Made by a program: the position numbers and the translations under genes. Below the pieces are notes generated by a model, which saw only the letters and a program-made list of their open reading frames with translations, made no database searches and was not told the DNA's origin. This document shows, one piece after another, positions 17,111 through 48,670 of a stretch of DNA of 64,000 bases. Positions within the stretch are counted from its first letter, which is position 1; the number at the start of each line of letters is the position of its first letter. This DNA comes from Obelidium mucronatum (Eukaryota; Chytridiomycota; Chytridiomycetes; Chytridiales; Chytriomycetaceae). The DNA lies in contig JAIVFH010000001.1 of the NCBI GenBank assembly GCA_025765595.1, positions 186,001 through 250,000 on the forward strand, given 5' to 3'.

Positions 17111-18126
17111 ATGATCAGCCACACTGCTACTACTACTACTACTACTACTACTTCTGCTACTACTTCTGGTGAGTTTCTTGTGTTCCAAGTTTCTCCAGCA
17201 GCAGCTTGTGTCTCAACTTAATCACCTTCCCCACACATAGTTGCAAAAACTTTCTTGGACTCCTTCGTGACTATTTTAGACGATATGAGCGCAGTTGACA
17301 AGGAAATTGTAGATCGCGTGTTTCTCAAGATGATGGCGGTCAGGGTTTTTGTTTTTTTTATTGGGAAGATTTCCACACTACTACTTAACACGCGCTACTA
17401 TCCGCTTTGTTTGTTTGTGCAGACTTACTACTCCCTCCAGAATAAATCTTGTGAAGATATGTCACCAGTTAAAGACGCCGCGGCAACAGCAGAAACAGCA
17501 ACCACAGCAGCGGTAGCAGAAGCAGCAGAAGCCGCAAGTGTTCCAGTCCCTATTGTATCGCGTCAAGAGACGGTGAGTTTCAGTGTTTTTTTTTATTCTT
17601 CTTATGGTTCTTCTTAAATGTGAGAAAACACGCGTAGTTGAATGAGCTTGACGTTCCGGAAGCAATGCCATTGTACCAAGAATCAGTAACCGTTGAGCAC
17701 AATCTTGTCATCACCAGTGGCGGGAACGGTGGCGACGGCTCTTCTTCTTCTTCTTCCCAAGCAGTAGTATCGCAAGTCGCTGGTAAGGCTGCAGTGAACC
17801 CTTGTCCTTCTTTGGAGCCGGAAGTCATCCCAAAACTGTCGCGCGCCCAACGAAGAAATCGCGCTGCGAAACTTAACCTTGAAACCGCAGCAGCGGCAGC
17901 GACAGCAAAAGCAGCATTAGCAGTAACTGTGATGAAAATTGAGGTTTGTCTTGCTTATTTCTTTCAATTGCATAACTGCCAAAAAACAAACAAACAGGTT
18001 ACCACAAAGAAGGCTTGTCCTCCAACCCAGCCTCCAAATATTCCCGTAGTACAAACTCCTGTGCAGACAGCTAGCGCTAAGCGAAACCAGCGCAAGCGCA
18101 AGGCCAAGAAACATGGTCAAAAATAA
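17111..18126 (+). CDS. Unrecognised multi-copy family, copy A
   Basis: Exons 17111-17168, 17241-17338 (98 nt), 17423-17572, 17638-17943 and 17998-18126 join to 246 aa. The second exon has the family signature FLDSFV-ILDD...EIVDRVF-K. Exon 3 ends RQET directly before the donor, as in copies B and D, and the next exon begins Leu-Asn-Glu where others have Leu-Val-Glu/Asp. The C-terminus differs from the other copies: Ala-rich, then strongly basic (RNQRKRKAKKHGQK), which could be a nuclear or RNA-binding tail. Exon 1 carries an ACT repeat (poly-Thr). Intron 4 (54 nt) has no stop and a length divisible by three. No known domain is recognised. Gene structure is likely right; function is unknown. 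Confidence 0.7.
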
Positions 18127-18366
18127 AATGCATGCTCCACCCCCCTCGAGTTATTTCCTGCTTTTCTTCATATAATCACTCTTTTATTTTTCCTTTCTGA
18201 GCATTGAAAATAAAATTAACGTTGCCTTAATTCTTATATATTTAAGTTACAGCCAAAGATGACTAAGATGTCTGTTATTGTATGGTCGCCTGGCTATAAC
18301 GCTCTCTCGCAAACTGCTTACTAATAAATATGCTTTTTATTTCATTCAAGCTTCAGTTTCTCCTGA

Positions 18367-18867
18367 TCATCCACTAGCGTGACGGCCGAGTCTCTTGATA
18401 CTCCACTCAACTCTGTGGACGAGTAAGATTCCCGCTGCGATGGCCAAAGACGCCAGAGCGATTGAGAAACATGCGAGGGCCGAGCTAAAGTCTCTTTCAG
18501 GGTTTGGCGCGGCTTGGCAGAAGTAGACAAAGCAGCAGAAGAAGACGGCGAAAACGGCCATGTAAGCATAGAGGGCAATGGACCAGGGTCTGTCCGCTTC
18601 GTGAGAATAAAAAACACAAAACAGCAGAAAGAATTTCGAAGCAAAGTGCCACAAACCAGGTGAATCAACGGCTGTGGCTGTGTGGTGGGATCTGAAGTAC
18701 TCCTGCAAATTGCTGTGACTCCACTTGTATGCGTCGAATCGCCTGTCTGCCTCCTCCTGAAGCACTGGACGCAAAGGGTTATCAAGAGATATAGCTGCGA
18801 GTTCCTGTTGTGCTACTTCCCACTTCTGTTTGGCGTATGCCATGTCGTTGTGAAGTGTTGCTTCCAT
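18367..18867 (-). CDS. Small membrane protein, unrecognised
   Basis: A single exon from ATG 18867 to TGA 18367, 166 aa. The N-terminal half is charged and probably helical (MEATLHNDMAYAKQKW...). Three hydrophobic segments follow: roughly residues 73-90 (LWHFASKFFLLFCVFY), 96-118 (ALYAYMAVFAVFFCCFVYF) and 128-150 (ALACFSIALASLAIAAGILL). I do not recognise the family. It faces copy A tail to tail. A diverged fragment of this gene, cut by the retrotransposon insertion, lies at 20599-20614 plus 31391-31575. Confidence 0.6.
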   Translation of the reverse strand: MEATLHNDMAYAKQKWEVAQQELAAISLDNPLRPVLQEEADRRFDAYKWSHSNLQEYFRSHHTATAVDSPGLWHFASKFFLLFCVFYSHEADRPWSIALYAYMAVFAVFFCCFVYFCQAAPNPERDFSSALACFSIALASLAIAAGILLVHRVEWSIKRLGRHASG

Positions 18868-20614
18868 TTAAACGTGAAACAAAAAAAGTAATTAGGCAAT
18901 TGCATTGTCTTTCAATAATTGATTGCCATCAATGCCATGGTTGCTGTCAATTAAGAAAAGCTCTATCCTAGTAGCTCCATACGATTCCGCTAACAGAGTT
19001 GCGTTGTTTCCCTTTGTTGCCTTTCAATATTCATTATTTCAACTATTGCGCTCACAGGAGAAATTGCGCAGTGAAGCTTAACCTTTGTACTTGCAGTCGC
19101 AGCGGCATCTGTTGTGAATATTGAGGGTTTGTCTTGATACTTACAAAATGCCTGCTTTTTTTAAAGCGCTGCAGTGCAAAATTTTTTAAAGTTTTAACGT
19201 CCATTGTGAGGATATAAAAAAAACATTGAGTTTCCAATTCAATGCCAAATGATACTTGGCACACCAACAAACAAAATGCTAGGCTCAGTGTCAGCCCTTT
19301 CACCAATTGCAAATAAAGACAATTTTGTCAAATTTGTTTTTAAGACAAGAAAAGGGAATTCCCAACAGACAGATACAGATAACCATATGTGCTGGAACGC
19401 CTCAAAGGCACAATCTGCAACAAACACTCTTCCTTCAGGCCTTCATTCATCAAAGCCTGCCTCATTTTGGGCAATCTGCTACCCCTACATCCAAGACACC
19501 AAGGACGCCAGATCCAGGACAATGGCGGCCTATTTCAGACACCTCAAAGTAATGCAGGAGTCTGTCTATGACTTCAACAACAAATACAGGAGGGCAGCCA
19601 GCATCACCAATGCGTTCGGCTCTCCCTACTGATAGTTTTCTGATGGTTGTTGGAATTGGTTGAAACTGAATTCGCGTTTCAGATTGGTTCAACGCTGTGA
19701 TTAAATTTTTGGGCCTGGAATTTGTATTTAAGGAGTGGTTTTCCCCTTTGTTTTTCTTCATTGAATTCTGTGTTATTTATTTGGTTTGACACATACAAAC
19801 AAATAGGTAAAATATATTGTGATTGAATTCTGTGTTATTTATTTAGTTTGACACATAAAAACAAATAGAATATCCGCGGACACGTTGTCAGCACCAAGTT
19901 CTACGATTACGATTGCGTTCCTTAGACTATGGGTGACAATTTCTACAAGGCAATTCAGTCCTTGAATCAAGAAGTAAAGATTGGCCGCATTTCTATTTAA
20001 AGTTTTCAACTGTCCTCGAAGCAAAAGATATATTGCATGTCTTGGACAAGCCACCGACGGAAGCCAAGGATGCAGCTGCTCATGCAATTGAGTTGAATTA
20101 ATAGAAGCAAGACAATGCCAAGGCTAGGGCCTATTTGGTCGGCAAATTAGGTTGTGACACTCTCAACCTCATTGAGCACTGCAAGACTGTAGCAGATATG
20201 ATTGCGGTCTTTAAACTCAGTATGAATCTGATTCAGCGTCTTCATCATTGTCAAGACTGGATTGATTACTGGATGTGTCCTACAAAACTATGAGCAACTT
20301 ACCTCAGTACAATGAACAGAATAGGTATTTTATGTTGCTTGTACAAGTCAAGAGTGCCTTGTCTTCCACTGTGCTCCAATCTTTTGCATTGGCGTACTGG
20401 ACTTTGGGTGGCATTTTAGTTAAGTTTTTGTGTGAACAAAAAAAGGTATGTTTCCGGCTTTTTTTCAGGCTTTTTTTTCTCAAAATCAGAAAATTTCTTC
20501 CAAAAAAAACACCTTTGCATTTCACGCAAGAGGGTCAGATGGGAGTGTTATTTATTTGGTTTGACACATACAAACAAATTGAATATCCACCGACACTGGG
20601 TCTGGCGCGGCTTG
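18868..20614. other. Relic-rich region without intact gene
   Basis: It holds a degenerate copy of part of family gene A (19055-19140, matching 17855-17955). There is an open frame 19249-19632 on the plus strand with a polar product that I cannot place (DFNNKYRRAASITNAFGSPY end), possibly an old gag-like fragment. A phrase with TTATTTATTTGGTTTGACAC is repeated near 19772, 19830 and 20550. No complete gene is supported. Confidence 0.45.
19055..19140 (+). pseudogene. Fragment duplicated from family copy A exon 4/intron 4
   Basis: Shared words in the same order (GAAATTGCGC..., AAGCTTAACCTT, GCAGCGGCA, ATTGAGG then GTTTGTCTTG) match 17855-17960, including the donor site of intron 4. It has diverged and has no open frame. 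Confidence 0.6.
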
Positions 20615-20767
20615 TGTTGACTTTCGCTATTATTAATTGTGTATTTATTATTATTAATTTCACTCTGCACGCGCTCATTCTAAATGAGAAAACTTAATTG
20701 TATGATTAAAAACAAAAACAAGTATAAATTAAAGGATAAGACAAAATAAAAGAAACAGAGAATTGAA

Positions 20768-20966
20768 TGTTATAATATGATAGCCGCTTATCGTATCTAT
20801 TACATTACCAATGTGTGTTCAATAATAAAGGGAGATTCTTTGGAGAAAAATCAAGCGTTCTTCTAGAACTCAACGCCCACGTTCCCACTAAGTCACATAA
20901 GCCGTCGCTTAGACTATATTGCCGATCTAACTCTGTTTATTTAATCACGCATAAAGGAAAATAACA
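20768..20966 (+). repeat. Element 1 left LTR
   Basis: 199 bp, TG...CA, matching 25793-25991 with five substitutions. Confidence 0.95.
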
Positions 20967-21074
20967 AGTTATGAGCCCAAAGGCATTGTCTTTGGTGATT
21001 GTGAAAGGGAACAAAGAAAGACGGAACTGGCCGGCAACAAGGGGGAAGAATCAAACGCGACCGATTCTAAACGA

Positions 21075-22320: not shown

Positions 22321-23827
22321 ATGTCAAAAACGTATAAGGGTTATTTTGACCCCGGCTGCAACAAGACTCTGATTCCAGACTCTAGTTGGTTTGAGAGTTT
22401 TGTTGAAATCAAGACTCCGATTGGTCTTGCTGATAATAACTCGATTGTTGGTACGCAGCAAGGTGTTGTTCACTTTGACATCAATGGTCAAATTGTGACT
22501 ATACCTGATGCGATTTATTCGAAGCCGTGTTACGTTACGTTATTTTCGGACTTGGATCTATTGGCTGGGTGACCATCGTGGAAGTGTTCTATTGATCAAG
22601 AAGGCTCTCGCGCTGTTTTCTCTGATAGTCAAACAAAGAAAGTTTTATTCACGGCTGTCCAAGGTCCAAACGGTTTAAAGGAACTTCAATTCAAGATAGT
22701 TCATCGTTTATTCGCGAATATTTCTAAAAGTCTACCGGCTTCTTCAGATATTATTCATAAAAGATTTGGTCTTCTCAACGCTATGTATCTTCGCAAGTTG
22801 ATTCACTCAGATTCAATAAATTCAAATCAATTTAAATCTATCGCGATTCCCGATATTTATCAATGTGAATCTTGTGAGGCGGGGAAATTTAAACGCGCTA
22901 AAGTCGGATCCGAATCTCGATGGGTCGCGATTAAAGCTCTCGGTCCAGGTGAAATGATTCATGTAGATATTACCGGAAAATTCAATACTGGATTTTATTA
23001 TAATTCACGCATGTATTATTATTTCTTGATAGTCGTGGATGATTTTTCTCGCTATTCATTCCTTCGATTATTGAACAAGAAATCTGATGCGTTGGCGGAA
23101 TTGTTAGTGGTAATGGCGCTTATTGAAGTAACCACTCAACGTCAACTTCGGTTTATTCGCATCGATAATGGCGAAATTGCAACAAGCGCAATTTTCACGA
23201 ATCATTGCGACGTTCGCGGTATAACTGTTGAAACCATAGTGGTGGATTATGTGGATGCTGTTTACTATTGGTCACGTCAAGTCTATTGCGCGTACTATTC
23301 ACGTTCACGGTCAATTTGCGAAGAATATCTGGGGATATTCATCAATTTTGGCTTATGATTTACGGAATTTGTGGCCAAATGGTCATAATAATTTGGAGTC
23401 ACCTTTTATGCGGTATTTTTCGTGTAAACCGGAGATTCAGCACTTTCGTGTTTTCGAATGCAAAGTTTCGGTGCCAATCTATAGGAAAGGCAGTAAAGGA
23501 GAGTTGTCCTCGGATGTAGCTACTAAAACGTATGTTGGACCTCACTCACCTTCGATTATTCGGTGTATTGATAGTCATGGGTCTTTGAGTTATCATCGAT
23601 TCCAAGATTGCTCTTTTCATGAAACGGTATTTCCGCAATTGATTTCAGTAGATGCTACTGATTCTCAATCGTCAACGCGTGAGTTTCCAGAGGATTCTCA
23701 AATTATGTCTGCAGATGAAGAACGGGACTTTAATTCAGAACTTGACAATGCAGTCTCTGAAATTATTAGTCTGAGAAAACGCAATTCTCTTGATAAAACG
23801 GATGGTATTGTAGATCCTTTGGTTTAG
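22321..23827 (+). pseudogene. Element 1 protease-integrase region, broken
   Basis: 22321-22572 resembles the aspartic protease but reads DPGC where DSGA is usual. A TGA at 22570 separates it in the same frame from the integrase (22573-23358). The integrase has an HHCC-like zinc part (HKRFGLLN ... CESCEAGK) and catalytic-core segments HVDITGKF and RIDNGEI. The frame shifts near 23250-23350 and continues to a TAG at 23825. It is not functional as written. Confidence 0.75.
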
Positions 23828-23875
23828 GGGGAGGAAAGTACCACTGGAAAATCAACAACACGTCAAACAGGCTCT

Positions 23876-25705
23876 ATGAACAGCAAACGAGCAAAACTTG
23901 TTGAAAGTGATTCGGATTCGGATGAAGAGGATGAAGATTCATCATCGGATTTTGAAGAAACTATCGATGAAGTTGGTAGTCGCGCGATGTTGACGCATTC
24001 GCTAAGTGTTTTACCTATATTTCCTGTTCCGGAAACTTTGGTATATTCAATTAATGCGGTTTCTATTAAGGAAACTTCTATTGGCATGGATTGGGACGGG
24101 ACTATTCCAACGCGTCACACAGATATTAGAAGAACTCAGAATATCAAGGAATGGTTAGCTGCCGAAGAAGCGGAATTGAAGAATCTCGAAAATCATAATA
24201 CTTATCGCGAGATTCCTGAGTCCGAAGTTCCTGAAGGTGCGGAGATTATTCCAACGATGGAAGTCTATGCTGTGAAGAACCATAAGGATCTACCACCGGA
24301 CAAAGTCTTGAAATATAAAGCTCGAATTAGTGCTCGCGGCGATTATCAGACTTACGGAGTGAATTTTGTCAACACGTATTCGCCAGTTATCAAGACTACA
24401 ACGTTAAGATTTCTAATTGCGATGAGCACTTGGTTGGGAATTGGAATGTTCCTTGCTGACGCGGTTGGTGCTTACTTGAATGGGGTACTTGATGTTACTG
24501 TTTACGTCAGACCGCCTGTGTGCCATCCGAAGAAAAATGTCATTTGGCTTTTATTGAAAGGTCTTTACGGTTTAAAACAAGCGGGATTATTATGGTATCA
24601 GAAATTGTGTGATATCTTGAAATCTCTCGGTTATACTGCAAGTTATGCGGATCCATGTCTGTTTCAAAAATACGCTAGCGGATACTGGATTTGGATAGCG
24701 TTCTATGTCGACAATTTATTAATTTGCTGTCACGATTCAATTATCGATTTGGTTATTGCGTCTTTGAAAGCGAAAGTTGACATTGTGTAACCAAGGCCGC
24801 TGTGAATATCACCTGGGTCTTGAAATTGAATACGCGTCTGATCGAAGCTATTCGTTTCTTCATCAGTCAAAATATGTTCAACGCATCTTACGTCGATTCA
24901 GGATGGAAGCGTGTAATGGGACTCAAACCCCGATGGAAGTCAAAGCGAATTACAAACCTAAGAGGGACAACGAAGAATCTTTGGATTGACAAAGTTCGAT
25001 TATAACTCGTTAATCGGAAGTTTAATGTATCCATGCAATATTGCTCAATTTGATATTTCTGTTAGTGTTAGTTTGTGGCTAGCGGTCTTGGAAATCCTGG
25101 ATGGTGCAAAACGCGTCTTAAGATATTTGAAGCACTCGTATGATATGGGGATAATTTATTATCGCGCCCCGAATCCTATTCCCAAGCAGATCTATATTAT
25201 CGGTTTAACAGATGCATCGGAACCTGACAGAGAAAGTGCGAAAGCTCAAACTGGATGGTTGTTTAAGTTTATGGGGAAGTCGCCTATTTCTTGGCGCTCC
25301 AATAAGCAAAAGTTGGTCACCGCAGACCAAACGGACGCTGAACATGTCGCGTTCTACGAAGGTTCTCTCGAAGTACCTTACCTCTTGAATCTTTGCGAGG
25401 ATTTAAAGATTGATATTGTAAAACCATTGTCGATGTTTAGTGACAATGAGGCTTTTGTGAAACGCGTTTGCGAGAACAAACACACTGAAGCTTCGAAATG
25501 GATGGATCGCAGATATTGGAAAGCTATGGAGTTTTATTCGGAGAAAATCCTTGACTGTTCCCATATTCCGGGTAAACGCAACGAATCGGATATGTTGACA
25601 AAAGTGCTTGTTAAAGTGTTATTTGTACAACATCGTCGCAACGGCGGAATGCAATACCTTCGGTTTATCCGCGGCAAAACAACGGAAGATAAATTAGATT
25701 GTTAA
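23876..25705 (+). pseudogene. Element 1 reverse transcriptase and RNase H, broken
   Basis: The Copia RT begins in 23876-24790, in the same frame as the upstream integrase part after a stop. It includes KARISARGDYQ, LADAVGAYLNG, LLKGLYGLKQ and the catalytic box FYVDNLL, where YVDD is usual. A shifted segment (24777-24989) is followed by RNase H in the original frame (24986-25705) with GLTDASE, TADQTDAEHVA and an HTEASKWMDRRY end. Confidence 0.82.
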
Positions 25706-27819: not shown

Positions 27820-29286
27820 TTGTCACCGCTGACGCCAGTAAACAAGGACGGCCATCAACAACCTGTTTTTGAATACAACATTAATGAGTATGTTAAGTAT
27901 AACATTCCCTGGCAAGCTGCACCGGATGAAGAAACAATTGCTAAATTCTTTGGACCATGCGACGCACTTGCCCTAGTTGCTCAATGCAAAGTTAATGACA
28001 ACAGTGACAAAAATGACAATAAAGCCCTTAACGCTTACCCGCTCTCTAGTGACACTAATGACACCAACAAGTTTGACTCAATTATTGACTCCGGCGCCTC
28101 CAGTCACTTCTTCGTGAACCTAGCCAATTTTCAGGACTATTCAACGACAGACGGAAAAGTAACTGTTGGTGGTGGAGGAACAGTTAATATAGTTGGAAGA
28201 GGTTCCGTCACGTTATTTGCTAACGGACAGGAAGTGAAGCTTCAAGAAGCTTACCATGTCCCAGAGTTTGAATCCAATCTAGTCTCAATGTCCGCACTCT
28301 GTAACAAAGGATGTTTAATAACAATGGACAACAACAAAGTTGAAATTAAACTGCGGGAGAGACAATACTTACGGCAAACAAGTCTGGAAACCTCTACGTC
28401 CTAAACGCCAAAGTAGTTGCCACCCGCCACATCTAACCAAGCCGCACTGACGGCCAGTAAAAACACAATCTTGGCAGAACTCCTTCATCGACAATTGGGA
28501 CACTGTGGAAAACATGCAATTAATATGTTAGTAAAGAACAGAGACATCTTGAAGGGCTTACAGAAAATCAATGGAAATTTGGACTTCACATGTGAACATT
28601 GTATCGAAGCCAATCTCCACAGACGCTCCTTCAAGACACCACGACAAGTCAACGCGGTACCTGGCTCCACTTGGAACCTTGATACCTGTGGACCAAGTCA
28701 AGTGGAGGCCATGGGTGGCTACAGAAAATTCTTGGTTCTCGTCGATGACGCAACTTCAACAATTTTTGCTTACCTACTACAGGGAAATGATGAAGTCCCT
28801 GACAACATCAAAGCGTTTGTTGAAGAGATGAACACCAGAGGGAAACAAGTCTGCAAGCTATGTTCTGACAACGGTTCTGAATTTACAAATAATGAGTTAA
28901 AAGAGTTTTGTAAATCAAAGAACATCAAGCAAATGTTAACCGCACCTTACAATCCAGAACAAAACTGCCGCGCTGACTGTGCCATCCAGACGCTCATGAA
29001 CAAGGTCCGCACATCCCTCCGTGACTCAGATCTCCCAAAGAGATTTTGGGGCCACGCGCTACAAGCCGCAGTATACGTCCACAACCAAACTCCACGCGAA
29101 AGCCTTGCAAAGACACCGTACAAAGCTTTCACCAGCAAAGTACTGGACATCTCAAGGTTAGGCGTGTGGGGGAGTAGGGCTTATGCGCTCGAACCAGACG
29201 CCAAGCGTAAGAAACTGGACAATAGTGGCGTTCCCTGCAGAATTATTGGTTTTAAGCACAAAATTATCTTGTTTACAACAAAGTAA
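27820..29286 (+). pseudogene. Element 2 protease and integrase, broken
   Basis: Protease: IIDSGASSHFFVN with the DSGA active site near 28080, then the Copia-type YHVPEFESNLVSMSAL. A TAA at 28402 interrupts the frame. Integrase follows (28417-29286): HRQLGHCGKHA, CEHC zinc part, WNLDTCGP and CSDNGSEFTN catalytic aspartates. The third acidic residue, usually Glu in PQQNGxAER, appears as Asp in NPEQNCRADC. Confidence 0.8.
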
Positions 29287-29829
29287 GCAAAACAACTTAC
29301 GCAGTTGCCACACTGAAATCCATCGAAACCCAAACGACACACAACGACACCCCTGATTCCGATTCGGATGAAGGGCCTCTAGTACAAAGACAAATTAATG
29401 ACAAAGACAGTGATAGTCAAGCCAAAAATGAAGATGAAACACGCATACCTCGTTCCGAGGCCCCAAGCCCATCTACCATCACTGGGGCAATGACAGCGTC
29501 ATATCGCACTCCAGCCTCGAGATATTCGTCGCCCAGCGTTTGATTTCAAGAAGATGAAGCACAGACACCAACCCAGGCACAACGGACATCTGGCAGAGAA
29601 AGAAAGCCGGTTATTAAATATACAGCAGGAATCGCAAAGTCTACCTTACGCGCCCTAGCTGCCCAAGTTTCGACCGTTTCGACTGACCCGGCTCACTACA
29701 ATGATTCAAATGCGTCGGAACAAGCCTACAATTGGGTTCATGCTATTAACAACAAATTAGAAGTGTTAATAAGAAATGACACATGGACTGAAACAACATT
29801 GCCTGAGGGACACAAAGCTCTTGTAAGCT

Positions 29830-31146
29830 GATGGGTTTTCAAAACCAAAAGAGATGCCGCTGGGAACTTTACCAAGTTCAAGGCGCGCCTGGTTGCCCAA
29901 TGTTTCACTCAAGTGCCGGGAATGGACTACTATGAGACGTTTGCGCCCGTAGTCCAAATCACCACAGTAAAGACACTTTTTGCAATTGCTGCAATTAGAA
30001 ATTACAAAGTCCACGCACTGGATGTAAACAACACTTACCTTCAGGGAGAGCTGGAAGAGGAGATTTACATGAAGCCGCCTCAAGGCTACCAGTTGACCAA
30101 GCGCAACCATGTCCTCCGCCTCAAGAAGGGACTTTGTGGTCTAAAACAGTCCCGCTGCGCGTGGAATGAAACGTTAAGTGACAACCTTATTAGCATTGGC
30201 TTTGTTCAACTTGTAAACGATGAATGCGTTTATAAATTGGATATCCCAGGCATGGAAGTTTACCTAATGGTGTATGTCGACGACTTAGTACTATTCGCAA
30301 AAGACACAAACACAATCGCTTACGCGAAGGAGAAGCTTAAGTCCGTGCTCGACGTAAACGATCTGGGGGAACTGCAAGACTACATAGGTATGAGATTCAC
30401 TTGCAACAAGAGGTTCAAGACAATTTCACTTACCCAGCCAGGATACACCGCCAAGATCCTTGACCGTTTTGGAATTACACCGGACAAGAAGACTGCCACC
30501 CCTATGATGGATATCCTAATGCTTAGCAAAGACACCAATGCACCACCCTTAAATAATGACACTCACAACTATCGCGGCCTAATCGGTTACGTGATGTACC
30601 TGGCCGTATGGACGCGACCAGACATCCTATATGCAGTGGGGACACTGTCCAGGTACGTATCCGAGCCCCAAGCAGCACACTGGGATGCAGCGATTAGACT
30701 CCTGAAGTACATTGCTAACATGCCCAAATTCAGACTCACCTTCAACAAGACAGTACCAGACGCAGCAACGCTAGTCAGATATTCAGACTCGGATTGGGCA
30801 GGAGACCAAGACACCCGCCACTCTACAACCGGATATTGCTTTATGTTAGCAGGAGGTATTGTCTCAGCAAGAAGCAAGCTTCAACCTACCGTTGCTACAT
30901 CGCCGATGATGGCAGAATGGGCTGCCGCATTCCAAGCAACCACTGAAGGGATTTATTGAGACAACTTTTGGGAGAAATTTGTTAAGTACAAAATTCCCCA
31001 ACAGTAACGAGTCACACCAATGCTCTAAACACATGGATGTCAAGTACCGCTACGTGAGAGAGCAAGTACACTCGGGAAACATCAAGTTAGTTTACATCTC
31101 CACAAATCACATGACCGCAGACACTCTGACAAAAGCGTTACCATGA
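29830..31146 (+). pseudogene. Element 2 reverse transcriptase and RNase H, broken
   Basis: A long open frame 29913-30959 with YYETFAPVVQ, LDVNNTYLQGELEEEIYM, GLCGLKQS, the catalytic box MVYVDDLVLF, and RNase H SDSDWAGDQDTRHSTTGYCF. A TGA at 30957 ends it. The usual Copia tail HMDVKYRYVREQV ... ADTLTKAL is still visible up to about 31146. RT residues look intact; the element is dead because of the stops. Confidence 0.88.
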
Positions 31147-31204
31147 ATCAAGTTCTTGCAGCACCGCGAAGCAATAGTACAACGCGTACAGAACAGAGGG
31201 GGAG

Positions 31205-31390
31205 TGTTGACTTTCGCTATTATTAATTGTGTATTTATTATTATTAATTTCGCTCTGCAGGCGCTCATTCTAAATCAGAAAACTTTATTGTTTGATTAAA
31301 TACGAAAACAAGTGTAAATTAAAGGATAAGACGAAATAAAAGAAACAGTGAATTGAATCCTAAAATAGTGACAATAGATAATCGTTAATA
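31205..31390 (+). repeat. Element 2 right LTR
   Basis: 186 bp, the same length as the left LTR after removing element 1 and one copy of its target duplication. Confidence 0.92.
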
Positions 31391-34229: not shown

Positions 34230-36660
34230 AAAACAAGAGAAAAGCAAAGCCACCACCCACTCACCCACCGCATCACATCGCATCGCACACCAGCCGCATC
34301 CATCTACATCAACCAGGATACTTCCCTAGAACTGAAGACGCGTTTCAAGAAAACTGGATCTCACGTGTGGACCACTTGAATAACCCACATAAAGTTACTA
34401 ACAGCGCACATTCAGGTACAGCGAACATGGTGTTATTCTTTATGATGCTTTTAAGATCAGAGCTTCCTTGGAATCGTCATTTGATGTGATGTGCTGCTCC
34501 TTGCTGTTTTCCAAAGTGTCATCATCTTTGGATTTTAACGAGGACCCAACGCCGATATTTCACGCTCAAGCTTATAATTATTCAATCAATGGCTTGTGTT
34601 TTGATGGCGGAGCAGTGAACGATGGCGTGGAATCAGTTATCGGATTCAGAGGGACCGAGACTGGAGACCACAAGTCCACCAGCAGATAAGTTACCTCCTC
34701 CAAAGCCACGCTGATCCCTTCGGCAACAACCTTCATGACCTGAGGCTTCACAGCCAGAACCCGTTCAAAAGTTCATCGGCTGCTGAGAGGCATTGATCGA
34801 ATGTTTCAGAAGAAATACTCTTCAAAAGGGGTCAAGCTCTCTGTAATAACCGCAAAGTGGCAAGATTCTGATTCGATAGTTTGTGCGAAGGACTACCATT
34901 AATTGGAGCCTTTCTCAAGATGGCTTGGAATGTATGCGAATGAAAAGCTGAAGATATTGGCGGATTCAAATGTATGCGAATGGGGCGGACGATAGTTCTG
35001 CGAGACATGTGCAGAATTGAGGTCAATATTGCAGCGAGAGACATACGCTGGGAAAACATACATACATGGCAGCGATTTGAGAGAAACAAGTGGAGCCTTT
35101 GCATAAAACGTCAGAGATTTGTCACTGGGATGGACGGTACGCATATTGGTTGGTTCTGTTGAATTTGATGGAGATGCCGTTTTATTTTTAGAAATCGAAG
35201 GAACGAGGACACATCAGCAAGAATCACGACAATAACAATAGTTGCCACGGAATCCACAGTGCCTTAGCTGGAATAATCCAGATAATCTTCGATATTATAC
35301 CAAAATGCAAGCGATGGACATATTTTGGCGGGACGGTGGCCTTAAAATATTTGTCAATTTCTGGACCAATGAATCAGGCATCGCGTATAAGCCCCACCCC
35401 TGGCGCCGTGTAACTTGAAGGCATTTGGGCTCTAGGATTCATAAACTCGATCGATTCCAGGAGAGTAACAGGAGAATAATGCTCTTTAACTGCAATATCC
35501 ATTATGACCTCGTACATGTCTATTTTAATCATGGCGACGTTCTGAGGTTGGAAAAAAAATTTTCTCCCCTTTTTTTTTAAAATATTATTGTTTTCTTCGT
35601 CTCAGGCCGTTAATACGCCAACCAGCGACTAAATTTTCCTGGCACGACTTTATTCCATGGAATTTATCGCTGCTTGTAATTCCCAACGCGTTCTTCAATC
35701 ATCCCTCTCGACTTTAACAACAATTATCCCGATATGCGCCGTTTCTCCAAATACTTCCGCCACCAATGTATTCTAAGATGAGACTAGGAGAATTGTATTA
35801 CTGTTGGAGTCGGACTGCAGAACAGCATTGACTCAAAATGACAAAGAGACCGAGACGGGGAGTATTGGACACCGGAGAATAGCTGCCGGTATAGGCGGCG
35901 GATCATTTAGTATTCGGTAGTGGAAGCAGAGCCAAACAAGCAACAGAGCTTACGCTGCAGCAAAGGATTTGAGTGGCACACTATCAAAAGTCAAGCATGT
36001 ACCTATTTCGGGGATTGGAGGAAGATTCCCTGAGAAGAAGCTTATGTAGTATGGAGGCCACTTCAACTGACCCGTCGTTTATTTTTAGCAACATTCGAAA
36101 CCCAACTTAAGTCGTCGAAGAACCTAAAAAACCTCTATAACACCTGCTGTCAAATTAAGATTCTGGATTCTGCTCTGCTAGCGAGAAAGATAAAAAGCCA
36201 ACACGAAAAGCGCACTCGATACTGACATCAAGGAAAATCAGATGGAAAATGACCAAGAAATCAAATGACCAAGATATTTATATGGTCACTTGTCGTCCTT
36301 CGCCATCAAGAAATTCCTAGGAATTTAGACGCTGGGAATGTGCAATAACGCAAACGCAGTCAAGCTCACTCGATGACATGGAATACGTCATCGGAATTTC
36401 GTTCAACCTTGGTCAATGAGGATGGGTCGTTATTCAATGAAATGGAGGTTTTGAGGTTGGTCATTGACAAATTTCTTCGTTATTTTTTCTCCTTTTTTTT
36501 GACACTGAAAATAATAGGAGATGGGCAATTCAAGCCACCCCAAGCTTTCAAGCCACAAATTCTAGTCCGCTACTTTGGTTCACATCGATTCGTCCCATCT
36601 ATTAAGCCGAGTTCTTTTCTATTCCATGAACTCAAGAGTGACTTGGTAGGTGTAATGTGG
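34230..36660. repeat. Segmental duplication block X, copy 1
   Basis: Similar along most of its length to 41495-43440. Examples: AGCAAAGCCACCACCCACT, GATTTTAACGAGGACCCAAC, AACAAGTGGAGCCTTTGCAT, CAGATGGAAAATGACCAAGA and ATTCTAGTCCGCT all occur in both, in the same order. It may hold exons of one or more decayed genes: plus-strand TEDAF-E-ISRV and FERNKWSLCI-RQRFV, and minus-strand SIEFMNPRAQMPS, are conserved in both copies. None can be assembled into a full product. Confidence 0.75.
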
Positions 36661-37067: not shown

Positions 37068-37969
37068 ATGATTGGCACGAATTGTATTCTAATGGCGTCC
37101 TCAAACTAATCTAACGCGTCTTTAGACATCAAAACATTCCTGACTGCTTTTATTCAAACCATTGAATCGCTGGAAGCTGATGAAATAGCTGCACTGGATC
37201 ACGTTTTTTCAAACTTTGCAATGGTGGGTTTTTAGTCAGACTTACTGCCCATATTTTAGCACCACTGACGTTGATTCCACTGTTCAGATGAGCTTTCTAA
37301 GAACAAAATCAGATGTTGCAACAGAAAGCCCAAAACCCATCACTCAAGATCTTGTTAGTAACACGTTGAAACTGGAAGAAAACTAACAACAAGGCAACAA
37401 ACACAGACATTGAAATTTAGCCAAGAAAGCTTAGCATCACTCATTTCTCCAGTATCGCTGCTGTCAGTTAAAATGCCAGCGGACCTTCCAATCACGCCTG
37501 TTTCATCACCAAAAGTACAAAAATTATGTGCATCGTCGCCTAAGTCTCAAATAGCCCCAGCAGTTGACATACCACACAAGGTAGGTTGAGCAAGTCAAAA
37601 TATTCTTTTGCTGCTATTGAAAGTTTTTTCAAGAAAAACATAGACGCTGTTCCACTTGCCATTACCCCACAAACTGTCGCACACTCAAAAAGCAATACGA
37701 GTAAGCACGAGGGAATATCCTCAAACTGGCGTAAAAGTAGACCATTGCTGGCAACAACACGCGGAATCTGTGATTACGCAGATAGACGGCAAGCTGGTCG
37801 TGCCGATTCCAAACCGGTTCCTCAAACACTTGCAAAGAAAAGGTCCATAATTTCCCCACCAATTGAGACAGACCCCTATGCCGCTGGCTCTTGGGCTTTA
37901 ATGGATCCAGATGAGCCTATTGATTACGCTGAAATAATTGGCTGGTACAGAAATGTGGGATCAAAGTAA
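37068..37969 (+). CDS. Unrecognised multi-copy family, copy C
   Basis: Exons 37068-37084, 37127-37223, 37288-37353, 37407-37580 and 37634-37969 join to 229 aa. Exon 2 shows the family pattern (LTAFIQTIESLEADEIAALDHVFSNF). Exon 1 is one base longer (17) and exon 2 one base shorter (97) than in copy E (16 and 98), so intron 1 has changed phase while the total stays in frame. The last exon ends AAGSWALMDPDEPIDYAEIIG, matching the end of copy E; it lacks the WMTLDEMDP block and the RQET junction. Function unknown. Confidence 0.68.
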
Positions 37970-39186
37970 TCGCAGTTACTCAAGTTTTTTATTCCACGTT
38001 TGTCTATTTTTCGCCTTGCATTTGATGCTTTTCTTACTTTCTTCTCACAACCGTGATTGTTATTTTTGTTCTTTGCTTATTATCGTATTTTTCTTTTGCT
38101 CTCATACGTTTGTCTTATAATAATCACAAGCTCTTTCGCTTCTCAAATTTCTTCTCACATATCTTCTGCCGTTCGTTCTCAAGTTCTGTGATTTTCTTTC
38201 ATTCCTTTTTCTCTTTATTTATATTTGTTCTCCATCTATTTTCTGTGTTTCTTTCGTTCCAAATAAAGACATGTCTGACTCAACAGTTGTGATAAATAGA
38301 CTCACACGCAACTCGATGAGGATCCTGCTTCTCCTTTAAAACGAGTGAAAATTTTCACAGCTTTCGGACGTTGTCCGATTTTTTCACTTTCTCCAATTTT
38401 TTCACTTGTTGCAAATTCTCCAAAATCTGGAATAAAACGCGACGCGTCTGCAAAGAATATTCCATTTAAAAAAGATGCAAAAAACAAAACACACAAACAA
38501 CAAACACACTGCTTCGGACTGCCAGCCAACCCAAGCCTACTCAAGCCAACTGGTCCCAGCCAAGCCAAGCCAAGGTCCAAGGTGAACTGTCACGGGAGGC
38601 GCCATTAGAAACAGCTGATCAGGGCCGGTCAGTCTGAGGGGAGCCGCAAATTGAGTGAGCATTTGGCGATCCCCGGGGTTTGTATGCTGAGAGTCACGAG
38701 CAATTAGCAGCGGGTGAGTCCGGCAGACCCCCCCAATTTCCCTCGGTGGAACCCACTCCTTCTTCTTGTGTGTTTGATGAATTCGCGTCTCAAATGATGA
38801 TACAAATATTTTGAATGAGAACCAACGAGCTCCCAACTGTCCCAACAAAAGTGAGCTCCTAAATAACTGTCCCAACAAACATGAGCTCCCAACTTAGTGT
38901 CCCAAACAAATTATGAGATCCAAACTGTCCCAACAAAATGAGCTCTGAATGGCCCCACTTTTTTACTTTATGCTTTCTTTGTTTGCCCTATCATTGAATT
39001 TTAATAAATACCATGTTGATCTCACCACCGTGACTGCGCTTTAATGGAGAGTTAACATCCCAGCTTGTAAACCAGTTTCCAGTTTAACAGCTCTTCCGAT
39101 AACTTATATGATAGACACTCTTAATTATAATATACTTTTATTCGTTTTGATGGGTTCTTTTGAATGAAAGGCTCTTCGAAAATACA
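37970..39186. repeat. Pyrimidine-rich 3' flank and dispersed repeat R copy 2 (38255-39010)
   Basis: After copy C there is a T/C-rich run (37985-38250), then repeat R, matching 31700-32347 and slightly longer. The ~28-base minisatellite with CTGTCCCAACAAA and GAGCTC is repeated about four times near 38820-38945. It lies beyond the 3' ends of both copy C (plus) and copy D (minus). Confidence 0.82.
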
Positions 39187-40794: not shown

Positions 40795-41405
40795 AAAGCT
40801 TGGCTTTTCGTCGGAGAAGCATGGTAAATATAGCCAATAACGTGCTGGTTGGAGTCACCGATCTGAAAAATTACTTAAGGGCGCCGACCGTTTGAATACG
40901 CGGGTTGTAAACCAAGGCGATGTATTCTTTGCTTGCAGGTGTTGCATTCAAGCCAGCCGCGAATAAGACTGGCACCTCCAAGGTTTTTACATCCTCGGCA
41001 GCGGTTATAACAGCGAGTGTAATCCGACTCTCAAATTCAAGCCCGTGTAGCAACTGTTGCATCTCCTGCAGTCGAATATCCTCCCCTTCAAGTGACTTCC
41101 AGGTTCAAGTGAGTCACCGCCACAATTATTTCCCGTTGAGAATTCAAATGAAGGAACGTGCAATAATGGCAATTTGGTTCTGGGGAGTCCGATTTGAAGC
41201 TGATGTTTGAATGTCAGAATATTGAATTCACCGAGTTGTTGTTATTGAGAACTTTGCTGCCATGGAAAACAATGCACAGCCTTCGAGAGAGTAAGGCTTC
41301 TTTTTTGAAGATACCGTTATATTCCATGGATGAGAGCGTCGGATGAAGCCAGTTGGTAAAGTGGGGTCGCAAGATCTTGGAAGACCGTTTCTTCGAGTAG
41401 TAATT
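40795..41405 (-). pseudogene. Decayed copy of the EEP-family gene at 44-45 kb
   Basis: The minus strand keeps PHFTNWLHPTLSSM, YNGIFKKEALL, LFAAGLNATPASKEY and EMQQLLHGLE-like pieces of the intact gene, but in different frames with gaps. The DLNATPASK motif has lost its Asp (GLNATPASK), which in this family is part of the catalytic set. It precedes block X2. Confidence 0.82.
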
Positions 41406-41494
41406 CAATGCATTCGTATATCAGCACTAATTCGACGAGATTTAAATGGCTCTAATGTTTGGTTGTTGTTTTATGTTTGTTGTTTGTAAGAAAC

Positions 41495-43440
41495 AAATGA
41501 GAGAAAGCAAAGCCACCACCCACTTACCCATCGCATCGCATAGCATCGCACACCTGCCGCCTCCTTCTACATCAACCCGGATATTCCAGAGGACTGAAGA
41601 CGCGTTTCGAGAAGACCGGATCTCACTTGTGCACTGTTTGAATAACACAAAAAGTTACTAACAATGCACATTCAGGTCGAGCAAACATGGCGCTATTCCT
41701 TATGATAATTTCAAGATCAGTGCTTCCCTCGAATCTTCATTTGACTTGATATGCTGTTCCTCTCTGTTTTCCAAAGTGTCAGCTTCTTTGGATTTTAACG
41801 AGGACCCAACGCCGATATTTTACGCTCAAACTTGTAAAAATTGATGGCCTGCAATTTGATTTCGGAGCAGTGAATGATGGTGTGGAATCAGTTATCGGAT
41901 TTTGAGTTGCTGAGATGGAGAAACCACAAGTCCACCACATAATGCGTTCAAAGTCCATCGACTGCAGAATGACTTTCATCGAATGATTCAGGAGCGATAC
42001 GCTTCAAAAGGGGTCAAGCTCTCTGTAATAGCCGCAAAGTGGCGAGATTCTGATTCGACTGTTGGTTGCGAAGAGGTCCAATAGATTGGGCCTTTAGATC
42101 GCTTCGAATGTATGTGAACGAAAAGCAGAAGTGATTGGTGGCTTGGAATGTATGCGAATGAAAGGAAAAGGGGGGCGGATGATAGTTCTGCGAGATATGT
42201 GGTCAGTATTGCAGCGAGAGACATACGCTGGGGCAACATACATAAACGGCAGCGATTCGAGAGAAACAAGTGGAGCCTTTGCATAGAACGCCAGAGATTT
42301 GTCGCTGGGATGGAAGGTACGCATATTGGTTGTTCTTTGATAGATGCTGTTTTATTTTTAGAAATCCAAGAAAGCAGGCACATCAGCAAGAATCACGACA
42401 ATATCAATAGTTGCCACGGGCTCTACAGTGCCTTAGATGGATAAAAATCAGATTATCGACAAAATTACCCCAGAATGCAAAGCTAAAGCTATCGACATAT
42501 TTTGGCGGGACGGTGGCCTGAAAATATCTGTCAATTTCTGGAACAATGAAGCAGGCATCGCGTACAAGCCCCACCCCTGGTGTTGAAGGCATTTGGGCTC
42601 TAGGATTCATAAACTCGATCGATTTTATGAAAGAAACACGAAGAATAATGCTCCTCCAACTCAACATGCGCTAGGATATCGCGCATGCCTATTCCTTGAA
42701 ATGCAGCCATAACGAAGGTGACAACAAAAAATTTTCTCGTTTTTTTTTAAAAATTGTTTTTTTTTAGTTCTTTGTATCGAAAAAGACGCCGCTAACCAAC
42801 GGTAAAGTCTGCGGTGTTTAATTTCCGATTTGTTCTTTAGTTTCCCTTGTCAACGATACAGCCGTTTGTCCCACATGCGTCGTGTCTCCAAGCATTTCCA
42901 CCACCAATGAAAACCCACTCCGAGATTTAGCAACATTCAAAACTCATAAAAAGTCGTCCAAGAACCCCAAAAACTCTTTACAATCAAATCAAACATTTTT
43001 GATATTGCTTTGTTAGCGGGAAACATGAAAAGTCGACATGAATAGAGTGATAAACCAGATGGAAAATGACCAAGAAATTCATGTGGTCACTTGTCGTTCT
43101 TCGCCATCAAGATATTCCGAGGAATTAAGACGTTGGGAATGAGTAATAACGCAAACGTTGTTACGGTCACTCAATGACATGTGGAATAACTGTCATCAGA
43201 ATTTCGTTGAATCTTGGTCAAGGATGAAGGGGTATTATTCAATGAAATCGAGGTTTTGAGGTTGGTCAACGAAAAATTTCTTCGTTTTGTTTTCTCTTTC
43301 TGAAAATAACAGGAGATGGATGGGCGATCGATTGAAGCCACCACAAGCTTTCAAGCCAAAAATTCTAGTCCGCTGCTTTGGTTCACATCGATTCGCCCCT
43401 TCTATTAATTAGAGTGTTTTTTCATTGCATGAACGAGTGA
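41495..43440. repeat. Segmental duplication block X, copy 2
   Basis: Matches 34230-36660 in the same orientation with deletions. On the minus strand 42667-42404 is open (ESIEFMNPRAQMPS-like to FAFWGNFVDNLIF) and the same stretch is partly kept in copy 1, so it might be an exon of an unknown gene. No full gene is supported. Confidence 0.75.
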
Positions 43441-43689
43441 AGACCGAAGATTCTGATTCCACCTGGATCAAGGCACTGACTCGTATCGGTGACTTACTAT
43501 TGAGTATGAGTTTCAAATTCCAGCTTTCGAAACTGGAAAAATTGATTGCGTATTCTCAAACTTGCAATTGGCGGCTTGGATTGCCTTTTTTGTATGGAAG
43601 GACTGGAGTTTTTTTTTACTCCCTTCAAAGTAATACTGCGTCTTCAGCTACAGCGATAGACTGAGAGACGCAATACACCTCCTATTTAC

Positions 43690-43745
43690 GGTAAAGCAAA
43701 ATAAAAGAACTCCGTTGATTACGCTGAAATCGTTTTCAAATTTTC
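43690..43745 (+). pseudogene. Remnant of a family copy (C-like end)
   Basis: CGTTGATTACGCTGAAAT closely matches the end of copy C (TATTGATTACGCTGAAAT, encoding IDYAE). It is followed by a similar T/C-rich run. It sits after block X2 just as copy C sits after block X1. Confidence 0.55.
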
Positions 43746-45138: not shown

Positions 45139-45198
45139 GGTGGATATTTAAATACTCAAAAATCAAATAAATCAAAACGCATCAAGCAGCATCCCGCG

Positions 45199-46937
45199 AT
45201 GGAAAGTCTCGTCAATCAGGTTTGTTTCTTGATTCGGTCGACTGAGTGTATTATGCCATGCTAGCTCAACTAACTACCAACTCTTTTGTGGATACCCCAC
45301 CAAAACCACCCCCCCCCCCCCCCCCCCCAAAGGCCACCGATGAAAAGCAAACACGCGAAAACTGGGCCCTTTTTATCCGAATTTGCGAAAACTGCTCAGT
45401 GTAAGCCTTTCAGCCTATGGTCCTTAGCCGGCCAATCTAACCAAAGCGCCTCAGTTCTCCCGAAAAGACCCGCGAAACAGTCGCTGCTATTGCCAAACGA
45501 GTTGCGCACAAGAATGCAAACGTGTCGTTGTTTTCTTTGACGCTGGCGAATTGTCTTGTTCAAAACTGTCCGCTGAGTGTCCATCGAGAAGTTTCCTCGC
45601 GCGGTGAGAAAAAGTCTGCATCAAAAACAGAGTTTTCTGAATTCTGAGGTTTAGTGCTTGTGGATGCGCTGGTGAGGCAACTGATGGCGAGCAGCGTCCA
45701 TAAAGTGGTGAGAATGCGTATTGCAGAGTTGCTGCAAACTTGGGCTGGACTGTTTAAAGGGAAGCAAGAACTGGGGTATTTGGTGGACACATACAACCAG
45801 CTGAAGCAGCAAGGTGTGGACCAATTTTTGCTTTGGCTGTTGCACCATTCCTCATCTCCTTCCCTATCTTGTAGGAGTACAATTCCCGTCTCCAAATGAA
45901 AAACCAGACACAGTGAAAAGCGCAGGTGTTTTGGCGAAAGAACAGGAGGAGGAAGAACTGCAGCTAGCTGTTGAGTGATTTGTTGTAAGTCTCCTTCTGA
46001 CAGACAATAATTTAGCTGGCTCTCTCCATGAGCGCCGAAGAGCAAGAGAAAAAGCAGCCGAAAAGAGAAAGCTCAAACCAAGGGGTCCAAGCTGCTCCGG
46101 CTCCTTCCTCTCGAAACCCACTCTGTCGCGTCCGTGCCCTGTATGATTTCCCTGGGTTGGAGGAAGGGGAATTGCGCCTGACTTTCAATGATATCGTCAA
46201 CGTCCATGACGATACGACGTTCAAGGAATGGTGGAAGGGCGAATGTAATGGCAGAGTTGGTATCTTCCCGTCAAACTATGTCGAAAGAATCTCCGACGGT
46301 AACCCAGGAAATGGAAACGTGAGTGCCCCTTCTGCTGGAGAATCGGATCAACAAAAAGTGGAAAGATTTGTGGGTCTTTTGGCCAACGCCAATCCACGCG
46401 AGAGTTTGAGCGAGAATGCAAAAATACAAGACGCTTATCATTCCGTATTGATGCTCAGACCCAAGTTGTTGAGCGAATTAGAGACTTCGAGGGCCAAACA
46501 AGGTGAGGTCCTCTATGACTGGCTTGTGGGTTGATGGTTTTAACGTCTTGATTTCGCTCGATCAGACGAACTGGTGTCTTTAAATGAACGGTTCGCGACA
46601 GCGTGTGCGACTTATCAAAAGTTGATGGATGCTTCTTTGGCTGCACAGCGTGCAGGTATGCTTGTTGTATTACGGGTCCATAACTATTGGTCAACATGAT
46701 TTTATTCCAGCATATCAACAACAACCACAATATGGTGCCAATTATGGAGCTGGGTATTCTGCTGCCCCATATCAGCAAGGGCATCCGCCACCCTTGCACC
46801 AGCAGCAGTACGAACAACATCCCTCTCAACAGCAGCACTACGGGCAAATGCCAACCCAGCATTACCAGCAACAGGCGCCGCCGTTGAATCAGTATGCCCC
46901 GCCGCAACCCCAAGGAGGATCGTACTACCAGCAGTGA
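45199..46937 (+). CDS. HSE1: ESCRT-0 subunit Hse1/STAM-like (VHS-UIM-SH3)
   Basis: Eight exons (45199-45219, 45333-45398, 45447-45603, 45655-45813, 45914-45969, 46016-46502, 46566-46655, 46711-46937), 420 aa, all in phase. Order: VHS domain (ATDEKQTRENW ... LTLANCLVQNC ... VVRMRIAELLQTWAGLF, about 8-135), a ubiquitin-interacting motif (EEEELQLALALSMS, about 147-160), an SH3 domain (VRALYDFPGLEEGELRLTF ... WWKGECNGRVGIFPSNYVE, about 185-240), a coiled-coil-like part, and a Gln/Pro/Tyr-rich tail. Hse1 pairs with Vps27 to sort ubiquitinated cargo at endosomes. Intron 1 ends in a run of about twenty C before CAAAG. Confidence 0.93.
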
Positions 46938-47240
46938 GCATTTGCTTTTCTTCCCTTGTAATTTGAAATTTACTTTTGCCAAGATAATAAAGCTCTCTGT
47001 CGAACTCAATTTACAAAAGTTACTATCCAGAATAAGACTTAGGCAATTTGAATTTTTAATTGAGCAGCAGTTTCGATCGAGGTATCAGATTTGCGAAAGT
47101 ATTTGTCACGGAAAAGACACAATTTATCTTCGAACAAAACAACTCTCGACTCAACAAAGTGCGTACAATTCCTTCACTGATCGCGTCTCGATCTACCTTC
47201 TTTTTTAGCAACTGATCTGGCTTCTCCCTTAGGAAGCGAT
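46938..47240. other. Intergenic between HSE1 and family copy E
   Basis: About 300 bases of A/T-rich sequence without a recognised feature. Confidence 0.35.
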
Positions 47241-48670
47241 ATGACTGCCCCATTCAGTTAATATTCTTTTCAACGGGCGTGATCTTTCATCCTGACAATT
47301 CAATGATTTCATTCATTCAGAGGCAAAAATGTTCATCAAATCAATCCTCACACTTATTGACTCTTGGAATGAGTCCGACACAGCCCTCTTAAACTGCATC
47401 TTTTCCAAAGCCATAGTGGTTAATATTTTCATTTATCTTGTTCGAGTTTGGTGAAACTGAATCGCCAATTATTTTGTAACGGGCCTATACTTGTACCCTT
47501 GCCAAGATACTCGCCTCCCCAGCTGTCAAACCCCCTTCCGCTGCCGAGAAACCTTCATCATTCAACATCGGAAGCAGACAGGACACAGTACGTTGAATTC
47601 TTTGGTCGCTTTTTCTATACATAAGTACAGTTGGTTGAATTTGACAACGTGGACGCGGTTTCCGAAAATATTGTAGAAATGGAGTTTTTAGTAAGTTTTT
47701 CTATTCTTGGTGTTTTTTTTTCTTAGAGATACACAACTTATTGATGAGGAATAGAACTACCAGATGGTCGTACCAATATTCAATGTATTGCCACAGTGGC
47801 CTATGTGCTACAGTCAAGTCCCACACAAAGCGGAAATGGACCTTGTGTTGGATGGAAAAAGTGTGTTTTTCGAGTGAACGCCTATCATACGGAAACGAAT
47901 TTCATATTGCAAAGTGTACATCTCGTAAGTTAAGCAAGCATTGTATTATGCGCTTCTTTTTCGCCAGCCCCAGAGATGAATGTGTCGCAGTTGTTTAAAG
48001 TTGAAGGAGTTGAGAATATTGCTCATTTTGAAGAATCTGGAAACAAGGTAGTCGATCGTTCATGTTTTTTGAGGTATCCAAACTGACAGCGTGGAGATTT
48101 AGTTCCCGATCATGCTGCCATTATGGCCCATGTCCTACAGATTTATCTCACAATCAATGCAACAAGAGTTCTTATTTATTGGACAGAATGACATTCGAAA
48201 ATTGAACAGACGTGTTATGGAAGCTGCGTCTATGGCTCAAACGGCCTCTACTTCCACTAAAATCGTGTCAGAGTTGGTAAGCAAAAATCAAGGAAAATTA
48301 TATCACACTAAACCTTTAACAGTTGGTTGACGTTGAAACAGTAAAAAAAGAGCCCTCTGGAAAGAGCATCGATAGCTCGACATTTGAGATCTCGCCAAGG
48401 ATTTCTGATATGCTAGAAACCAAAAAGGCACAGCAAACTGCCGACTGGATGACACTTGATGAGATGGACCCAGATGTCCGGGCTCTATTCGAATTCGGAA
48501 TGGTGACGAATAGCCGCAGAATTTTCAGACCAAAAAAGAAAGTGGCTGTTCTCAATCAGGCTGGGATATGGACATCAAAGTTACATTCTTCAACTTCAAA
48601 GTTTGCCGCTGGCTCGTGGGCTTCAATGGACCCTGATGAGCCTATTGATTACTCAGCCATAATTGGATGA
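47241..48670 (+). CDS. Unrecognised multi-copy family, copy E
   Basis: Eight exons fit in phase: 47241-47256, 47321-47418 (98 nt), 47507-47587, 47631-47690, 47755-47860, 47968-48047, 48103-48276 and 48323-48670, 320 aa. Exon 2: KMFIKSILTLIDSW ... LNCIFSKA. Exon 3 ends SRQDT at the donor, and exon 4 begins LVEFDNVD. An internal repeat is visible: LPQWPMCYSQV (exon 5) and LPLWPMSYRFI (exon 7), each after a LV-EF/LFKVE-type exon. The last exon begins LVDVETV, then WMTLDEMDP ... ALFEFG ... SRRIFRP (as B), and ends AAGSWASMDPDEPIDYSAIIG (as C). It is the most complete member. The central exon borders are the least certain. Confidence 0.7.

Follow-up and report, generated by a model that had tools for sequence, protein, structure and literature searches.

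An apparently undescribed, species-restricted family of spliced genes with signs of mosaic evolution in one chytrid locus

How does a genome come to hold, side by side, genes that begin with the same short exon and end in different ways? We address this question in Obelidium mucronatum, a chytrid of the Chytriomycetaceae, for a 64-kb stretch (the window) comprising bases 186001-250000 of contig C1, which is 1,115,896 bp long in a genome of 48.3 Mb and 694 contigs. An earlier note on this DNA had described five spliced gene copies, A to E, with a constant N-terminal module, exchanged C-terminal modules and no recognised domain. Our analysis supports a real, species-restricted family with signs of mosaic evolution, which is apparently undescribed.

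Five spliced genes and their common second exon

Exon models of A to E were built on open frames and GT-AG splice sites, and those of C, D and E were afterwards compared with duplicate copies; all five genes were recovered at the places first proposed. Gene A (17111-18126, forward strand) has exons at 17111-17168, 17241-17338 (exon 2), 17423-17572, 17638-17943 and 17998-18126 and encodes 246 amino acids (aa) ending in a basic tail. Gene B (33708-32528, reverse strand) encodes 258 aa in exons at 33708-33687, 33625-33528 (exon 2), 33454-33317, 33269-33156, 33109-33044, 32973-32797 and 32689-32528. The five exons of gene C (37068-37969, forward strand; 229 aa) lie at 37068-37083, 37126-37223 (exon 2), 37288-37353, 37407-37580 and 37634-37969. 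Gene D (40383-39187, reverse strand; 282 aa) has eight, at 40383-40362, 40309-40212 (exon 2), 40152-40033, 39987-39868, 39821-39756, 39699-39442, 39399-39355 and 39306-39187. Gene E (47241-48670, forward strand) has exons at 47241-47256, 47321-47418 (exon 2), 47507-47587, 47631-47690 and 48323-48670, giving about 200 aa without a middle region (approximately 47728-48277), which is an open frame in a sister copy near 30 kb of C1 (E30) and is frame-shifted in the window relative to that copy. Exon 7 of D was adopted from a public gene model of the D type, P0001, which matches the remaining junctions of D exons 3-8. P0001 begins at an internal Met of exon 2 and covers D from late exon 2 onward. 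A second public model, P0002, is of the C type, has exon 3 as its first exon and departs from our model of C in how exons 3 and 4 are joined; the first two exons of the family therefore rest on sequence conservation.

Exon 1 measures 58, 22, 16, 22 and 16 nucleotides (nt) in A to E, respectively, and ends in phase 1 in all five genes. It is followed in every case by an exon of 98 nt that ends in phase 0 and encodes a module of 33 residues. The ranges first given for both exons hold, with one correction: exon 2 of C had been assigned 97 nt and has 98 with the donor 37223|GTGGGT. All introns after exon 2 are in phase 0 in the models (three in A, five in B, three in C, six in D and at least three in E), a count that is partly built in by construction because frame continuity guided the choice of some splice sites. 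The junction RQ(E/D)T directly before a donor, followed by an exon beginning with Leu, is present in A, B, D and E. The endings are also as originally described: A and D end in basic tails, E shares WMTLDEMDP...RRIFRP with B, and the stretch MDPDEPIDY is common to C and E.

Exon 2 is the one exon conserved across all five genes, and the other blocks found are shared by subsets of members. Profiles built from four copies of exon 2 retrieved the fifth among 1625 six-frame peptides (at least 25 aa) of the window, with expectation values of 3.7e-6 for A, 2.9e-16 for B, 1.2e-6 for C, 9.3e-15 for D and 4.1e-6 for E. The next-best peptide reached 0.03, 0.04 and 0.03 when A, B and D were left out, in each case a probable decayed copy at 43493-43630, and 0.22 and 1.4 when C and E were left out. 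Pairwise exon-2 scores beat all 2000 shuffles in 9 of 10 pairs and 1998 of 2000 in the remaining pair, E and C. Between the five types, synonymous divergence (pS) of exon 2 is at saturation (0.62-0.93), nonsynonymous divergence (pN) is 0.22-0.49, and pN is below pS in 10 of 10 pairs (p<0.05 in 8). As judged from sequence, these comparisons confirm that A to E are spliced genes homologous through exon 2, and thus bear out the constant N-terminal module.

Structure prediction from the five aligned exon-2 rows gave two helices, at residues 2-15 and 18-32, with a mean predicted local distance difference test score (pLDDT) of 91, forming a predicted two-helix hairpin. Phenylalanines F5 and F28 of the module are conserved. 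A fold search of the PDB with this hairpin gave no match. The exon-2 profile gave 12 PDB rows at expectation values up to 10, six of which are one bacterial toxin over 16 residues (best value, 0.015); we take them as chance helix matches because both a PDB search with the whole-protein profile, which found no relative, and the hairpin fold search came back empty. For the remainder of the protein, single-sequence prediction of P0001 without an alignment gave a mean pLDDT of 36, which would be compatible with disorder and equally with the lack of an alignment.

We found no relatives of the family beyond this species. Searches of 5.77 billion proteins at expectation values up to 10 matched P0001 and P0002 and nothing outside Obelidium mucronatum; D and C served as single queries, A, B and E entered only as rows of a six-row alignment, and the search with that alignment scored the 7995 candidates sharing most words. 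The closest database protein to D is the hypothetical protein BDR26DRAFT_848536 [Obelidium mucronatum]. In Pfam nothing exceeded the curated cut-off (best expectation values, 0.1-0.2), so that no known domain family emerged; the rows below the cut-off, Mucin15, L_lactis_ph-MCP and Cir_Bir_Yir, differ between types and were set aside. Among papers on Obelidium, judged by titles and the starts of abstracts, none concerns the family, and the locus prefix BDR26DRAFT was not found in paper texts. The suggestion of an undescribed system is thus in keeping with the literature looked at.

Duplicated copies and shared blocks

We next consider how the family is distributed. About 132 kb of C1 was read: besides the 64-kb window and the 20 kb that follow it directly, this comprised six stretches, each 6-10 kb long, from the region 18-128.5 kb. 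The exon-2 profile search of the genome proposed in the earlier note was carried out on the read stretches, where it found 13 exon-2 copies on C1 (at 31, 35, 45, 61, 64, 84, 123, 126, 203, 219, 223, 226 and 233 kb); small contigs that match C1 contributed five more. When the whole genome was searched at the protein level, with A, B, D and the final exon of E as queries, exon 2 was matched on C1, C404, C429 and C551, and C459 matched the final exons of B and E. These four small contigs are 97.6-99.97% identical to C1 over long matches and could represent second haplotypes or duplicates in the assembly. The part of C1 outside the read stretches may hold further diverged exon-2 copies. With A, B and D as queries against the whole genome, no convincing exon 2 turned up beyond C1 and the matching small contigs. 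Other contigs (C31, C9, C89, C108 and C170) contributed five rows at expectation values of 0.0096 or worse, of which only the C9 row touches exon 2; this match, to A (0.0096), consists of Thr/Ala runs, and the exon-2 profile scored 13 or worse on all C9 frames. A guessed DNA pattern for FDSVFSK matched on C30 and C260, which we regard as chance because the family searches afterwards gave nothing there. A subtelomeric position is unsupported, as none of the 29 exact (TTAGGG)4 matches is on C1.

C and D have been duplicated repeatedly. Four intact full-length copies of D lie on C1 at 46, 61, 126 and 226 kb and four intact copies of C at 35, 64, 124 and 223 kb. At three places, 61-65 (reversed), 124-127 and 223-226 kb, the two form a convergent unit that was copied along with the long repeats flanking it; no C copy accompanies the D copy at 46 kb (D46) within the 44-50 kb read. 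No close duplicate of A was found in the genome by protein search, and a fragment at 21.7 kb of C1 resembles the final exon of B as well as that of E.

The intact copies behave as coding sequences. No coding indels occur within the four C or the four D copies, while their introns carry indels. The ratio of nonsynonymous to synonymous substitution (dN/dS) is 0.30-0.52 among D copies and 0.24-0.62 among C copies, and dN is below dS at p<0.05 in 10 of 12 within-type pairs, which are not independent of one another (p = 0.067 and 0.17 in the other two). Exon 4 of D (39987-39868) has only 2 variable sites in 120 among the four copies, against an average difference of 4-14% in the exons and introns that follow it; this near-invariance would be explained by conversion or by a second constraint. 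Other copies are damaged. Of the E copies only E30 is open in the middle region, where the copy near 84 kb (E84) has a stop, and D81, the D copy at 81 kb, is interrupted by a stop and has lost its 5' half. In the window, 43549-43730 (forward strand) is probably a decayed sixth copy of the C type, to judge by an exon-2 remnant at 43549-43577 (29 bp; 2 of 500 shuffles as good) and a tail remnant at 43715-43730 (16 bp; 0 of 500), which stand in the expected order; no exon-1 remnant was found (361 of 500 shuffles as good).

The blocks shared by subsets of genes were dated by comparing their pS with that of exon 2 in the same gene pair (Fisher test). Between B and D, exon 5 shows 2.8 synonymous differences in 16.7 sites (0.17) against 15.5 in 20.7 (0.75) in exon 2 (p = 0.0008), and the two genes can also be aligned in the intron that precedes exon 5. 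Between C and E, the last 22 codons show 5.5 in 14.5 (0.38) against 17.5 in 21.3 (0.82) in exon 2 (p = 0.015) and against 13.6 in 16.2 in the preceding 22 codons (p = 0.027). These p values are uncorrected. Both blocks are far below exon 2 and therefore fit transfer or gene conversion. In contrast, the WMTLDEMDP block in the last exons of B and E is as saturated as exon 2 (26.0 in 32.2 against 19.2 in 20.5; p = 0.23) and therefore fits plain inheritance. The exon shuffling first suggested is thus supported in part, for exon 5 of B and D with its flanking intron and for the C-E tail but not for the B-E ending. Since the C-E block starts within an exon, ectopic recombination or conversion is a better name for the process than classical exon shuffling. 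We also considered a common C-terminal domain for C, D and E, because plain divergence would then replace module swapping. The comparisons did not support it. Without the shared last stretch, C and E do not align, with an hhalign probability of 0.1 and 346 of 1000 shuffles as good, and D and E gave 0.5, with 55 of 1000 as good; similarity of the C, D and E tails outside the shared blocks is not significant.

Long repeats accompany these genes. C, on the forward strand, faces D, on the reverse strand, across a 754-bp element (38192-38945) that is repeated beside other family copies, and a diverged copy of it (31740-32292; 72% identity) lies downstream of B. A 2.4-kb repeat unit, R (34231-36640, forward strand), lies upstream of C, and a second, diverged R unit (41491-43434, forward strand) lies behind D and in front of the probable decayed copy. 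The matches listed are lower bounds, at least 32 for the 754-bp element and at least 66 for R. All the listed R matches lie on C1, C404, C429, C459 and C551 except one of 83 bp on C138, and for the two repeats together the listed matches outside these five contigs are eight short pieces, none above 83 bp, on C37, C60 and C138. In R the longest frame is 138 aa, and among the longest frames of four R copies, compared by eye, no common frame was found.

Explanations for the cluster

Based on these observations, we favour, by a modest balance of judgement, the explanation that a taxon-restricted family grew in one chytrid locus as segmental duplication and ectopic recombination reshaped the genes around a pairing tag that stayed fixed. 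The duplications and the young blocks can be read from the sequence, and from the position of the repeats we infer that these drive both processes. The long flanking repeats would promote segmental duplication, carrying C and D together to three places, and unequal recombination between them would supply new combinations. Because the introns after exon 2 are in phase 0 in the models, blocks could be lost, gained or skipped without disturbing the frame. The predicted exon-2 hairpin would act as an oligomerisation or docking tag through which members might bind each other or a partner that they share, and the tails, probably disordered, could carry short motifs differing between members. The proteins most likely act inside the cell, and the basic tails of A and D, which we take to resemble nuclear signals, suggest the nucleus. 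Whatever its function, the locus places intact, decayed and mosaic orphan members side by side within about 200 kb and thereby offers a view of gene birth in an early-branching fungus, with segmental duplication, block exchange and frame-safe exon loss legible as steps. Should pairing indeed be the role of the hairpin, the genes would constitute a new modular system.

Several points weigh against this explanation. The public models P0001 and P0002 both lack exon 1 and a complete exon 2, and P0002 disagrees with our joining of exons 3 and 4 in C; the family is known here from genomic sequence, and conservation is what supports exons 1 and 2. The uniform phase of the introns after exon 2 is partly a property of the models, and the young blocks were picked after sight, with p values left uncorrected. 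Oligomerisation is suggested by the two-helix prediction alone, with an empty fold search, and a low pLDDT for a single orphan sequence such as P0001 is no proof of disorder. The fourth copies of C and D, at 35 and 46 kb, are not adjacent to each other.

Known gene families offer partial parallels. The proteins of the wtf family of Schizosaccharomyces pombe are membrane proteins, which the Obelidium proteins do not appear to be by hydropathy, and the Obelidium genes form a single cluster; the likeness is one of architecture, with no sequence link looked for. All 25 wtf genes are reported to be grouped by exon 1 alone, and the conserved 5' exon, the turnover of other exons, non-allelic conversion, pseudogenes beside intact copies and nearby long terminal repeat elements are common ground (PMC13160552). 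The bicycle genes of aphids, salivary and in part secreted, resemble the family in fast evolution and a near-uniform intron phase, but have about 17 small exons, almost all in phase 2 (PMC9168663), against 5-8 exons, phase 0 after exon 2 and no secretion signal by inspection in Obelidium. Schistosome micro-exon genes share taxon restriction, a link to transposable elements and symmetric exons whose skipping would leave the frame intact; their mainly symmetric exons of at most 36 bp, described in a review (PMC8293314), contrast with the Obelidium exons after exon 2, which are symmetric but 45-348 nt long. These three seem to be the closest architectural parallels, and each fails at least one of the features compared.

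Rival functions were weighed as well. A conflict cluster working like wtf, in which one member harms and another member or isoform protects and the convergent C/D unit is a killer and antidote kept by co-duplication, is unlikely. In its favour, a single exon common to all members, turnover of the rest, signs of non-allelic exchange and pseudogenes beside intact copies recall wtf, C and D are adjacent at three places, and the internal Met starts of P0001 and P0002 would give forms without the whole hairpin. However, the maximal 19-residue hydropathy of A to E (1.02-1.85, borderline only in D at 1.63 and E at 1.85) does not show a membrane pattern like that of wtf, A and B lack close duplicates, and D46 stands without a C copy in the stretch read around it. 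The more specific proposal that the convergent C/D pairs are harm-and-protection genes recognising each other through the hairpin, with recombination between the long repeats generating new specificities, is distinctly unlikely. The form of the cluster would be compatible with conflict genes and is no proof of them; if such a cluster did exist, its proteins would be unrelated to any known killer or recognition system, and to our knowledge it would be the first of its kind in chytrids. We give little credence to a secreted effector family acting on hosts, prey or microbes and diversified through symmetric exons as in the bicycle or micro-exon genes. Restriction to one species, fast divergence, one dominant intron phase and clustering speak for it, and the parallel in gene structure is partial, but inspection and hydropathy revealed no secretory N-terminus, only a lead of 5-19 residues followed by the charged amphipathic hairpin, and cysteines are few (1-6 per protein). 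Inspection of the sequences thus lends secretion no support, and the effector role floated at the outset stands as a suggestion.

Two further rivals remain. That the genes are non-functional by-products of local duplication, whose open frames persist through youth, could account for the frame shift in E, the stops in E84 and D81, the lost 5' half of the latter and the decayed-looking sixth copy, as well as for the two within-type pairs that do not depart significantly from neutrality. It is very improbable: dN/dS is below 1 in both C and D, the eight intact copies are free of coding indels that their introns do have, and the exon-2 protein is conserved past synonymous saturation. Very improbable too, and slightly more so, is that the family is cargo or product of a mobile element of which R and the 754-bp repeat are parts. 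The copies do sit in repeated multi-kilobase units, with Copia-type elements in the interval from A to B, but a dispersed element would scatter over the genome, and the listed matches of both repeats beyond C1 and its four matching contigs are confined to the eight short pieces; nor was a shared frame seen in the four R copies compared, although R, whose frames were not run against Pfam, may carry a mobility gene.

Neighbouring features

The Copia-type pieces between A and B lie at 22783-24787 (RVT_2, with rve below the cut-off) and 27820-30956 (Pol_BBD, rve and RVT_2). A 210-bp piece behind A (18512-18720) is repeated near B (31391-31575; 79% identity), and a further shared piece (20614-20777 and 31204-31367; 92%) adjoins this repeat pair. 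A phosphatase gene lies at 15-16.7 kb.

Beside E, an SH3-domain gene occupies 46028-46937, with the SH3 domain in the open reading frame 46028-46531; we presume that it is the Hse1/STAM gene. E30 and E84 carry along stretches of its neighbourhood. Downstream of E, a 62-bp piece of the last exon and 3' end of D lies at 48991-49052 on the reverse strand with 97% DNA identity, and a piece of the last exon of D is readable near position 13356 of C551.

In other units of the cluster, a further orphan protein adjoins the 754-bp repeat; its open frame spans 250-412 aa and includes KKRVSFN, and its copies are 91-95% identical. It is found on C1 at 131351-131947 (reverse strand) and at 51303-51893, 70473-71066 and 41221-41802 (forward strand), and on C551 at 13396-13992. 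Scanning the window for Rfam families and tRNA genes gave no hit. Beyond the gene family, the window contains tandem related segments at 52630-55873, which are 70-72% identical over 735 and 503 bp.

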